Shown in pieces: positions 20,377 through 24,282 of a stretch of 64,000 nucleotides of DNA. Within the stretch, counting starts at the first letter, position 1. Each line of letters begins with the position of its first letter. The notes under the pieces are model-generated. The model was not told where the DNA came from. It made no database searches and worked only from the letters and a program-made list of their open reading frames with translations. The position numbers were made by a program, and so were the translations under genes. The stretch lies in assembly GCF_000381925.1 (NCBI RefSeq), contig NZ_KB907309.1, forward strand, positions 1,054,001 through 1,118,000, written 5' to 3'. The DNA comes from Nocardia sp. BMG111209. Its GTDB lineage: Bacteria > Actinomycetota > Actinomycetes > Mycobacteriales > Mycobacteriaceae.

Positions 20377-21546
20377 TCAGCCCGGCAGCCGCACCGGCAT
20401 CAGCAGGTAGATGTACTTGCTCTCCAGCGCGGCGAAGGCCCCCGAGTCGAGTACGGCCGGCTCCTCCTCGGCCGTCGGGCACATTACCGCAGGGCGGCTG
20501 GGAGTGGTGAATCCGAAGGTCACCCGGTCCGAATGCAGGGCCGCCAAGCCGTCGTTGAGGTAACCGGGGTTGAACGCGATGGTCAGCGCCTCGCCCTGGA
20601 ACTCGGCCTCGAGCCATTCCTCGGCCCGGCCCGCGTCGTCACCGCCGGCGGTCAGCCGCAGGCCCTGTTCGGAGAACTCCAGCCGGACCTGGGCGCCGCG
20701 CTCGGCGACCAGGGCGACACGCTTGATGGCCTCGATCAACGCACTCACCTGGAGGGTCGCGATCGAGGTGTGCTCCTTGGGGAGCAACTGGCGGAACTTG
20801 GGGAATTCCGCGTCGAGCAGGCGGGTGGTGGTACGGCGGCCGCCGTTGACGATGCCGAGCAGGCCGTCGGTGCCGGTGCCGAACGCCAGCTGCACCGGCA
20901 GATCGGAGGCGCCGAGCGTCTTCGCGGATTCGGACAGGGTGCGGGCCGGGACCAGGACCGCGGTCTCCACATCGGGACGGCCGGGCTGCCACTCCAGATG
21001 CCGCACGGCGAGCCGGAACCGGTCGGTGGCGGCGAGCACGATCTGCGAGCCGGAGAGCTCGACCCGGATGCCGGTGAGCATGGGGAGCGTGTCGTCGCGG
21101 CCGGCGGCGACGGCGACCTGGCCGACGGCCTGGGAGAACACATCCACACCGAGCTCACCGGTCTGCGGCGGCAGCTCCGGCAGCTGGGGATAATCCTCGA
21201 CCGGCATGGTCGGCAGCGAGAACTTCGCACTGCCACAGGCGATCAGCACGCGGGTGCCGTCCACCGAGACGTCGACGGGCTTGTTCGGCAGGGCCTTGGT
21301 GATGTCGGCCAGCAGGCGGCCGGAGACCAGCACCTGTCCGGGCCCGGCGACCTCGGCCGCCACTCGCATCTGCGCGGAGACTTCGTAGTCGAATCCGGAG
21401 ACCGTCAGCCCGCTCTCGTCGGCCACCAGCAGAACGCCACCGAGTACGGGCACCGGCGGGCGCGACGGCAGGCTACGGGCCACCCAGGCGACGGATTCCG
21501 CGAAATCCTCGCGAGCGACCCGAAACTTCATGCTTGCAAGCTCCAT
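20377..21546 (-). CDS. dnaN: DNA polymerase III sliding clamp (beta subunit)
   Basis: About 389 aa with three clamp domains. It starts [20 protein letters not shown] after an optional five-residue extension and ends with the conserved PVRLPG tail. The motif [20 protein letters not shown] (about 40-60) is typical of actinobacterial clamps. Two starts are possible: ATG 21546 with GGAGAGG about 12 bases away, or ATG 21531 with GGAG nine bases away; the longer is listed. It tethers polymerase to DNA. Its promoter must lie in oriC. Confidence 0.97.
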
Positions 21547-21949
21547 CGCCCGGTCTGTCCTCTCCAGTCTCGATAAAGGTCGTGATCTGTCGACTCGTCA
21601 CTGCCGGCCGAACGGCTGCCGGCTCGAGCAGCGTGCTGAATCGGCCACCGACGACGTATCCACGGAGTGTGGCACAGGCGACCGACACCAAACCGTACTC
21701 GGGAGCGACCGTCATGGCTACGGCACCCCTCAACCCGGCGCGGCGCATTCGGGCACCGGCACGAACGCGACTCGGGTATCGGACGTCCGTCTCGTAGCCG
21801 GTCCGTTCATCTCCGCGCGATGCCCCCGGGTGCGAATCGCATCGGGATCCGTTCGCCCGCGCCGGGGTTCGCTGTCCTCCTTGCCGATCGTTCGCCGACT
21901 CGTCCCACTGCGGTCCGGCCGTTCGCTCCCGAGCCGACTTTCCACACAC

Positions 21950-21998
21950 CCTGTTTTAGAAGAAGTTATTCAAGGAAGAGAACTGCAGTAGTAGTAGG
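21950..21998. other. Candidate DNA unwinding element of oriC
   Basis: The lowest-GC stretch of the origin (CTGTTTTAGAAGAAGTTATT followed by an A/G-rich run and GTAGTAGTAG). It is flanked by DnaA-box-like sites at 21938-21946 and by the adjacent pair at 22002-22010 and 22011-22019. Melting there is an inference from composition and position. Confidence 0.55.
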
Positions 21999-22073
21999 CA
22001 CTGTGGATTCTGTGGACTTCGGCCATATCCGCAGGTGGGAACGTGTGGCGGCATGGGGATGTCCGGCGGGTGT

Positions 22074-22413
22074 CTCGAGGATGAACGGGGAGACGCTGTG
22101 GACGCCGCGGAACTGTCCCACGGTCATCCTCGAGCCATCCTCGAGTTCTCCCCGGAGAACGGGCCGGTTGTACACACTGTGCGTAATCCGGTGCACAAGC
22201 AGGGGATTCCTCGAGGACTCCACCGGGACTCCTCGAGGAATCCACATGCCGAATCGGCCGTCCGCGCAGGTCAGGTCCCGTGGATGAATTCGCCTGTGGG
22301 AACTGTGGATCACTGCCTGTGGGCAAAGCCGCGCACGCCCTGTGCGCAGACCTGTGGGAAACCAGTGGACAACAACGGTTGTCCTCGAGGACTCCACAAG
22401 AATTCCTCGAGGA
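22074..22413. repeat. Phased CTCGAG/TCCTCGAGGA palindromes in oriC
   Basis: CTCGAG occurs at 22074, 22129, 22140, 22210, 22232, 22384 and 22406. Four are extended to the perfect 10-bp palindrome TCCTCGAGGA (22208, 22230, 22382, 22404). Spacings include 11, 22, 22 and 55 bp, that is, multiples of about one helical turn. An 18-bp direct repeat, ATTCCTCGAGGACTCCAC, occurs at 22206 and 22402. The palindromes are followed by (C/A)TCCAC, making composite units with DnaA-box-like sequence. Confidence 0.8.
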
Positions 22414-22423
22414 CTCCACACCA

Positions 22424-22465
22424 CGAAAAAGCCGATCCCCCCAGGTCAACCGGGGGGATCGGCTT
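22424..22465 (-). terminator. Intrinsic terminator of dnaA
   Basis: The arms 22429-22442 and 22452-22465 make a perfect 14-bp stem (core GCCGATCCCCCC) with a 9-nt loop, followed on the minus strand by TTTTTCG. It starts 11 bp after the dnaA stop and should keep dnaA transcription out of oriC. Confidence 0.9.
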
Positions 22466-22476
22466 GTGGAGAACGA

Positions 22477-24282
22477 TCAGCGGGAACGCTGTTTGATTCG
22501 GGCTGTGAGTTCCTGAACCTGGTCGTACACGCGGCGCCGCTCGGTCATCTCCTTGCGTACCTTCTTCTCCGCGTACATCACCGTGGTGTGGTCGCGGCCG
22601 AACGCCTGCCCGATCTTCGGCAGCGACAGATCGGTGAGCTCCCGGCACAGGTACATCGCGATCTGCCGGGCCTGGGCCAGCGGCCGCGCCTTACCTGGGC
22701 CGGTCAGCTCCTCGAGCGTGGTGTTGAAGTACTCCGCGGTGACGGCCATGATCGTCGACGCGGTGATCTCCAGCGTGGTGGTGTCCGGCATCAGATCCCG
22801 CAGCACCACCTCCGCCAGCGACAGATCCAGCGGCTGACCGTTCAGCGAGGCGAAGGCGGTGACGCGGATGAGCGCACCCTCCAGCTCCCGGATGTTGCGC
22901 TCGACCCGGCTGGCGATGAGTTCCAGCACGTCGTGCGGCACGTCCAGCCGGTCCATCCGGGCCTTCTTGCGCAGGATGGCGATCCGGGTCTCGAGCTCCG
23001 GCGGCTGCACATCGGTGATCAGCCCCCATTCGAACCGGGTGCGTAACCGCTCCTCCAGGGTGGCGAGCTGTTTCGGCGGCCGATCCGAGGAGACGACGAT
23101 CTGCTTGTTCGCGTTGTGCAGGGTGTTGAAGGTGTGGAAGAACTCCTCCTGGATGCCTTCCTTACCCTCGATGAACTGGATGTCGTCGACCAGCAGGATG
23201 TCGGTCTCGCGATAGCGGCGCTTGAACGCGACCTTCCGATCGTCGCGGAGGCTGTTGATGAAGTCGTTGGTGAACTCCTCGGTGGACACGTACTTGACGC
23301 GCATCCCCGGGAACAGGCGCTGGGCGTAGTGACCGGCCGCGTGTAATAAGTGGGTTTTACCCAAACCCGAAGCGCCCCAGACGAACAACGGGTTGTACGC
23401 ACGCGCCGGCGCCTCCGCGATGGCGACCGCGGCGGCATGCGCGAAGCGGTTGGACGCCCCGATGACGAAGGTCTCGAAGGTGTATTTGGCGTTCAGGCTC
23501 GCCGCCGACGGCGCGGCCGCCTGCTGCGGCGGCTCCGGCGGCTTGTTGAAATAGGTCGGCCACGAGTTGCGGACGTTCACCACCGGCTCGTCGTCCTCGG
23601 CCTGATCCTCGATCGGGCGGCGGCCGACCGGCACCGCCGGGGCCGGCGGCGTCGGTTCCGGGGCGAACAACGACTCCTGCCGGGCGGCATCCGCGCCCCC
23701 GCGCATCGGGGGCAGGTCCAGGTCACGACGGGCGGGCCGCATGGACCCGCCCTCGTCATCGTCCGGCAATTCTCCGGCCACCGGTTGCGGTGGGAACGCG
23801 GGCTGGGGATAGTCCGGGCGCGTGGCGTAGTCACCGGGGGCGTGATAGCGCGGCGGTGCATAGTCGGCGGGGGTGGCGTAGTCCGGGGCGGCCGGGTAAC
23901 CCACCGGTTCGCGCGGGGTTTCGCGGGGACGTTCGGGCCGGGAGGTGAGCCGGGCGTGGCGGGGTGAGGCGGCCGGCCGATCGACCGGCGGGGTGGCCGG
24001 CGCGGCGATGCGGACCCCGAGTCCCTCCACCTGGGGGCCGAGCCGGCGGGCCAGCGAACGGAGAATCGGCTCGCGCAGATCGCGTTCGATGGCCTCCTGG
24101 GCCAGTGACGACGGCACCGACAGCAGCGCGAAACCCTGGGCCACGGTCAGCGGCCTGACCAGGCCCAACCAGGCTTTCTGGGCGTTGCTCACCGGCGGGA
24201 TGACCCCATCGGCCGAGCCGGTGGTGAGTTCGGCCACCACCTCGGGCCAGACGGCGGTCAACACGTTCTGCTCGTCGTCCAC
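22477..24282 (-). CDS. dnaA: Chromosomal replication initiator protein DnaA
   Basis: 601 aa from the GTG at 24282, which has GGGGAGG eight bases upstream. The frame stays open far upstream, but that part lacks similarity. Domain I (about 1-85) is followed by an unusually long domain II (about 90-260) rich in Pro, Tyr, Ala and Asp. The AAA+ domain has Walker [10 protein letters not shown] (about 305) and Walker B LLVDDIQF (about 365). Domain IV carries the DNA-binding signature [14 protein letters not shown] (about 567). M. tuberculosis DnaA is 507 aa, so the extra length is in the linker. DnaA-box-like sites upstream suggest autoregulation. Confidence 0.97.

Follow-up and report, generated by a model that had tools for sequence, protein, structure and literature searches.

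INTRODUCTION

In Nocardia sp. BMG111209, the spacer between dnaN and dnaA carries seven copies of the palindrome CTCGAG, several of them 11 or 22 bp apart, which raises the question of what such an array does at a replication origin. The window, that is, the whole stretch of DNA analyzed, covers 64,000 nucleotides of this 9.14-Mb genome (G000:C3:1054001-1118000); genera are numbered throughout, g1 being Nocardia.

The control of replication start by methylation has been established in E. coli, with Dam and SeqA, and for the actinobacterial case we found in print only a motif cluster and a correlation. Blow et al. (2016) sought clusters of orphan-methyltransferase motifs in non-coding DNA and, in the part of the text consulted, describe clusters of CTCGAG that lie between dnaA and dna polIII in Nocardia/Nocardiaceae and correlate with an orphan CTCGAG methyltransferase (PMC4752239); the same part shows no modified base for CTCGAG. 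The word is therefore already known as a methylation motif at this origin, and the remark in the first-pass annotation of the window that it knew of no described actinobacterial oriC element with this word is not supported. Apart from this paper, an open-licence literature search brought up nothing on CTCGAG at actinobacterial origins in the titles and opening lines of abstracts that it listed.

RESULTS

Seven CTCGAG words in the origin spacer

The spacer is bounded by dnaN and dnaA and holds, outside the three runs described further below, the following features:

20377-21546, minus strand: dnaN (open reading frame)
21547-22476, no strand assigned: oriC, the dnaN-dnaA intergenic spacer (open reading frames; homologs of both genes flank the spacers of relatives)
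21989-22019, no strand assigned: TAG repeats (TAGTAGTAG) beside two TGTGGA DnaA boxes on the minus strand, starting at 22002 and 22011 (sequence, box scan)
22072-22082, minus strand: ATCCTCGAGAC, containing the CTCGAG at 22074 (sequence)
22097-22105, minus strand: DnaA-box-like 9-mer (box scan)
22477-22479, minus strand: stop codon of dnaA (open reading frame)

The TAG repeats with their two boxes make up what we take to be, and label, a DnaA-trio-like unwinding module; similar TAGTA...TGTGGA stretches were seen in the sequences of several other genera. Just beyond the dnaA stop codon, about 17 bp from the last palindrome, lies a G+C-rich inverted repeat at 22431-22463 (GCCGATCCCCCC...GGGGGGATCGGC), preceded on the left by an A-run, which looks like the dnaA terminator.

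The seven words start at 22074, 22129, 22140, 22210, 22232, 22384, and 22406, as the first-pass annotation had counted them. Four are extended to the 10-bp palindrome TCCTCGAGGA (22208, 22230, 22382, and 22404), forming two pairs exactly 22 bp apart, and the other spacings include 55 and 11 bp. Every one of the four palindromes is followed by TCCAC, starting 11 bp past the palindrome's own start (22219, 22241, 22393, and 22415), and the 18-mer ATTCCTCGAGGACTCCAC at 22206 recurs without a mismatch at 22402. An earlier estimate of about 0.1 CTCGAG expected by chance was right in size, although it had assumed a G+C content of 70% and the segment has 62%: the 3,566 copies in the 9,143,142 bp of the genome predict 0.133 per 340 bp, and the Poisson probability of at least seven is ~1.3e-10. 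For TCCTCGAGGA, which is common in this genome as such (48 copies vs 1 of the reversed word), 0.005 copies are expected in the spacer, where 4 of the 48 sit (Poisson probability of at least four, ~2.4e-11).

Word and spacing across Nocardia

A dnaN gene was found in 148/148 genomes of the genus, giving 145 complete dnaA-dnaN spacers (130 plus 15 long ones) and three cut by contig ends (G032, with eight CTCGAG in the part present; G097, with one; and G038, with 150 bp only). All 145 complete spacers hold at least two CTCGAG, and each of the 130 holds 4 to 12 together with at least one TCCTCGAGGA; the repeated words at this Nocardia origin are real and conserved. A 22-bp pair is present in 128 of the 145, all of them among the 130, and an 11-bp pair in 114 of the 130. 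When successive words up to 40 bp apart were tallied in these 130 spacers, 269 of 485 distances were 22 bp and 204 were 11 bp. The first-pass annotation had asked whether word and spacing are kept across Nocardia origins, and they are, the exception being the 15 long spacers, none of which has a 22-bp pair; 12 of these have an 11-bp pair and three have neither, so phasing is not universal in Nocardia. These 15 spacers (L412-L426) are 1.5-2.7 kb long, with 16-23 GTGGA and only 2-6 CTCGAG. Two TCCTCGAG whose starts are 11 to 22 bp apart were found in 144 of 146 genomes of the genus; outside the origin, the matches listed amounted to none to a few per genome, many of them one 12-bp-spaced sequence, TCCTCGAGCACCTCCTCGAG.

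In the alignment of the 130 spacers, CTCGAG matched the window at 97% identity, and so did the TC/GA arms of all four full palindromes (97%); the TCCAC/GTGGA cores reached 86%, the remainder of the cluster region 60%, and the sequence to its left 47%. Distances between clusters shift by a base or two (54/55, 59/60, 70/71, and 152-154 bp), and those within clusters hardly change. Neutral tandem duplication of a 22-bp unit could by itself have left both the 22-bp pairs and the 18-bp direct repeat, but functionless copies would not be expected to stay at 97% identity beside sequence that drifted to 60%, nor to hold their internal distances while the distances between clusters vary; this reading was already disfavored, and we give it next to no credence.

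The same figures bear on a second possibility, a dedicated dimeric regulator that would read the 10-bp TCCTCGAGGA and oligomerize on one helix face beside DnaA, with methylation irrelevant. Arms as conserved as the core are more than a 6-bp methyltransferase needs, and the exact 11/22-bp spacing suits cooperative binding. The TC of one arm, however, is also the TC of a TCC repeated at an 11-bp pitch through the region (see below), and that arm is therefore explained by the DnaA register.

An 11-bp lattice of DnaA-box cores

Three runs, each of four 11-bp units, were delimited from the sequence and its conserved register:

22116-22159, plus strand: lattice A, units TCCCACGGTCA / TCCTCGAGCCA / TCCTCGAGTTC / TCCCCGGAGAA, with CTCGAG at 22129 and 22140
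22208-22251, plus strand: lattice B, units TCCTCGAGGAC / TCCACCGGGAC / TCCTCGAGGAA / TCCACATGCCG, with CTCGAG at 22210 and 22232
22382-22425, plus strand: lattice C, units TCCTCGAGGAC / TCCACAAGAAT / TCCTCGAGGAC / TCCACACCACG, with CTCGAG at 22384 and 22406

When the window is written in rows of 11, each unit of the three runs starts with TCC, and the rows flanking each run do not. The DnaA box, given as TTGTCCACA for Mycobacterium tuberculosis and Streptomyces coelicolor in the part of PMC4285127 consulted, has TCC as its core. We scored TCC on both strands around 1,110 TCCTCGAG anchors from 94 Nocardia spacers left after dereplication. It occurred 782 times at +11, 529 at -11, 582 at +22, and 494 at -22, vs 33 expected, and TCC lying outside palindromes followed the same register (616 at +11, 363 at -11, 284 at +33, and 214 at +22, vs 28 expected per offset); neither set of counts is independent, as the spacers are related and a palindrome is counted on both strands. 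Among CTCGAG neighbors 22 bp apart in the 130 spacers, TCCAC stood exactly one pitch on in 186 of 269. The CTCGAG units thus fall in the same 11-bp sequence register as the DnaA-box cores, and several units in one orientation at an 11-bp pitch, as in an E. coli-type low-affinity array, were found here in the form of that register. In the box scan, a single 9-mer at the palindromes, at 22379, matched the DnaA box at seven of nine positions. Together with the conservation above, the TCC counts bear out part of the first-pass reading: the element lies within oriC, is strongly selected and helically phased, and is in register with DnaA-box cores.

The lattice could be taken as a plain DnaA array, in which TCCTC is a weak DnaA core, CTCGAG arose within it, and methylation plays no role. 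Such an array would account for TCC at 11-bp multiples round the palindromes, inside and outside them, far above expectation, and for E. coli the portion of PMC4451416 consulted describes weak DnaA sites arrayed at an equal pitch. The GAG half of the word, however, lies outside the DnaA core, and yet CTCGAG as a whole is 97% conserved.

Arrays in other genera

We compared 85 spacers from the family outside Nocardia (71 from 28 genera plus 14 more), calling an array where there were at least three CTCGAG with at least one neighboring pair 10-25 bp apart. Arrays were present in g10 (10/10), g20 (2/2), g23 (10/10), g27 (10/10), and g22 (1/6). Spacing is mostly 12 bp in g23, where the commonest flank before CTCGAG is CC, and mixed in g10 (10, 12, 15, 18, and 32 bp) and g27 (11, 12, 15, and 21 bp); in all three genera CTCGAG mostly lacks a preceding TC. 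Since both spacing and flanks vary in g23, g10, and g27, the constant element is CTCGAG and not the arm or the exact pitch. That other genera retain the word with mostly free flanks and other spacings counts against a protein reading the 10-bp form, and the missing TC counts against CTCGAG as a by-product of weak DnaA cores.

One g20 origin (G166:C13:45358; L244, L328) is in the Nocardia style, with TCCTCGAGGA and three CTCGAG that follow each other every 11 bp, and in one g10 origin (L301) CTCGAG recurs every 15 bp near the dnaA end, a third kind of pitch. Among 18 named loci from other genera, two from Rhodococcus carry 13 and 11 CTCGAG, and the other 16 (Gordonia, Mycobacterium, Corynebacterium, Saccharopolyspora, Streptomyces, and others) carry 0 to 2. 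In the g22 genome G225, the origin (L287) holds one tandem array in which TACTCCTCGAG and TACTCCACAGG units alternate or replace each other at 11- and 12-bp steps; its sequence gives the impression of a DnaA-box lattice into which CTCGAG was inserted.

A candidate m5C methyltransferase and its Vsr neighbor

The genome encodes two m5C methyltransferases. The first (L358; 396 aa, PF00145) lies at G000:C3:902149-903336, on the same contig as the origin and ~170 kb from it, and a gene for a Vsr mismatch endonuclease directly adjoins it (TIGR00632, above cut-off), as does one for a dienelactone-hydrolase protein. A Pfam scan of five neighboring proteins found an ABC transporter, a DUF998 protein, an esterase, a dehydrogenase, and one protein with no match, and no restriction enzyme among the five. 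Orthologs of at least 74% identity were found in 61 of 161 family genomes, including 11/11 Nocardia, and the next best homolog was at 65%. Vsr lay within the fetched flank of the methyltransferase gene at 28 of 30 loci and also follows the gene in G225. The middle part of the protein is near-identical in the aligned orthologs, including those aligned from genera that have the gene and no array. The gene at G000:C3:902149-903336 is our candidate for, and probably encodes, the CTCGAG enzyme.

Other methyltransferases of this genome were set aside as the CTCGAG enzyme. The second m5C enzyme (L359) looks accessory: its other relatives are at most 66% identical and soon spread over other actinobacterial genera (120 listed of 2,781). 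L354 and L355 are type I-like methylase subunits, and L357 is a BREX-2 PglX methyltransferase (1172 bits to NF033451), so that a BREX-type defense system is likely in this genome. A PF01555 search of the genome gave no match. BseCI recognizes ATCGAT. The strongest adenine-methyltransferase candidate, L356 (616 aa), has M.BseCI as its closest solved relative (7qw5, E 4.5e-98); this orphan-type gene (L356:241-2091; G000:C1 ~3840022) has many relatives in Nocardia. ATCGAT is itself listed as a Nocardiaceae orphan motif in the part of PMC4752239 consulted, and, judged by sequence similarity, L356 is probably the ATCGAT enzyme of Nocardiaceae.

The array follows the methyltransferase gene

Among the 85 spacers, 33 had both the gene and an array, 17 the gene only, none an array only, and 35 neither; homologs at 49%, 58%, and 65% identity (G157, G385, and G260) were counted as without the gene. 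Fisher's p for the association was 1.9e-10, uncorrected for kinship, over the 81 spacers placed in the tree; too little dnaA in the locus kept out L287 (gene and array) and three g30 spacers (neither). The 17 gene-only spacers belong to g6 (10), g16 (4), and g26, g28, and g31 (1 each). The methyltransferase gene is necessary, not sufficient, for the array. Within g22, G225 alone has both, and in G168, G193, G209, G238, and G250 the gene was unmatched and the spacer holds 0 or 1 CTCGAG.

This dependence weighs on both remaining alternatives. A plain DnaA array, indifferent to methylation, would have no cause to be missing wherever the gene is missing, as it was among the 85 spacers; we consider that reading improbable. 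Nor would a dedicated dimeric regulator be expected to have sites that track a methyltransferase gene, and we regard it as unlikely, if slightly less so than the plain array. The known methylation motif, the dependence on the methyltransferase gene, and the DnaA-core lattice together explain more than a dimeric dyad protein does, and a protein that reads hemimethylated CTCGAG would belong to this dyad-binding kind.

We also looked for an independent origin of the array beside six distant methyltransferase homologs with 49-68% identity, one from g29 and five from outside the family, and found none, and the spacers of the five outside-family genomes contained no CTCGAG. One of these genomes, G620:C112 (L409) of another family, has its 68% identical methyltransferase ~20 kb from dnaN and a spacer free of CTCGAG. 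Genome-wide, the CTCGAG:GAGCTC ratio, taken as a possible footprint of methylation and Vsr, had a median of 2.28 in the 61 genomes with the gene vs 1.69 in 30 hand-picked from 100 without it, with overlapping ranges; it was low in Nocardia (median 1.50), and in g22 it was 2.33 in G225 vs 1.70-2.36 in the five genomes without the gene. There was no clear footprint in this ratio.

DISCUSSION

The best reading of this locus is a methylation-gated array of low-affinity DnaA sites working like Dam/SeqA, in which CTCGAG words are the targets of a conserved orphan methyltransferase; we give it a probability of roughly 0.58. It builds on the clustering, conservation, phasing, TCC lattice, and dependence on the methyltransferase gene, all of them as read from genome sequences. 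Against it stand the 17 spacers with the gene and no array, the six distant homologs with no array beside them, the incomplete phasing within and outside Nocardia, the single DnaA-box match of seven in nine positions at the palindromes, and the overlapping CTCGAG:GAGCTC ratios. The seven CTCGAG would be target sites of this enzyme, clustered at oriC and, in Nocardia, built into an 11-bp lattice on one helix face, with TCCTCGAG units standing among TCCAC/TCCCC units. CTCGAG is palindromic, and every methylated site would therefore become hemimethylated once the origin is copied, all of them at once after replication. The methylation state would then alter how readily DnaA, or a competing protein, fills the weak units of the lattice, and this altered filling would delay or time the following initiation, in the manner of Dam/SeqA acting on GATC in E. 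coli. We predict that DnaA binds the TCCTCGAG units weakly and that methylation gates the binding, so methylation may control the timing of replication start.

A more specific version is held tentatively, with a little less than even confidence. It posits an origin-licensing switch analogous to Dam/SeqA in Nocardia and its relatives, Rhodococcus included, with an m5C orphan methyltransferase guarded by Vsr; in Nocardia, CTCGAG would sit within a phased lattice of weak DnaA sites, and methylation would act directly on the surface of the DnaA filament. As the pitch is 11 and 22 bp in Nocardia but mostly 12 bp in g23, such arrays may have arisen repeatedly, the enzyme being present in those lineages beforehand. 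The 11-bp DnaA-core register, the probable enzyme with its Vsr, and the contrast within g22, where one sampled species has both gene and array and five have neither, make the idea testable. If true, it would be a second, independent case of replication timing by methylation, using cytosine rather than adenine.

The closest published case is that of the Nocardiaceae CTCGAG clusters, with the same word, the same dnaA-dnaN spacer, the same taxon, and a correlation with a methyltransferase gene (PMC4752239, as excerpted). Two marks of such a cluster are found here: CTCGAG is clustered in the non-coding dnaA-dnaN region, and the candidate methyltransferase gene, an orphan as judged by the five neighboring proteins scanned, is present wherever an array was called in the 85 spacers. 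The consulted part of that text is silent on the 10-bp palindrome, on phasing at 11/22 bp, on a lattice of DnaA cores, and on a Vsr partner. What is new, in that none of it was found in the parts of the open-licence literature searched, is the DnaA-core lattice, the Vsr-linked m5C candidate, and the within-genus contrast. The excerpt also describes TTAA clustered at the origins of Arthrobacter and CATG clustered upstream of orc genes in haloarchaea, which are likewise orphan-methyltransferase motifs at origins and differ from the Nocardia case in motif, enzyme, and taxon.

The low-affinity DnaA arrays of E. coli oriC (R5M-tau2-I1-I2 and C3-C2-I3-C1) are described in the available portion of PMC4451416 as four sites in one orientation, exactly 2 bp apart, and therefore on one helix face; as the sites are 9-mers, the pitch is 11 bp. 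The window has the same four-unit runs, three of them, at the same pitch, its units being known by sequence, but differs in that two of the four units of each run carry CTCGAG.

In E. coli, SeqA bound to hemimethylated GATC keeps DnaA off weak sites that overlap GATC (PMC4285127), and in vitro SeqA needs two helically phased sites to bind efficiently (PMC5145175). As far as the consulted parts of these papers go, the Nocardia case shares with Dam/SeqA a short palindromic methylation motif that is over-represented in oriC; in E. coli the motif overlaps weak DnaA sites, and in Nocardia it falls in the 11-bp register of DnaA-box cores, which may likewise be weak sites. It differs in phasing, since most Nocardia arrays have the helical phasing, at 11/22 bp, and PMC5145175 reports that integral turns do not separate the GATC sites of E. 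coli oriC. It differs also in chemistry: Dam/SeqA uses GATC and m6A set by a Dam-type enzyme, whereas the Nocardia motif is CTCGAG and the candidate enzyme belongs to the m5C class (PF00145), so that the mark is probably m5C, accompanied by Vsr.
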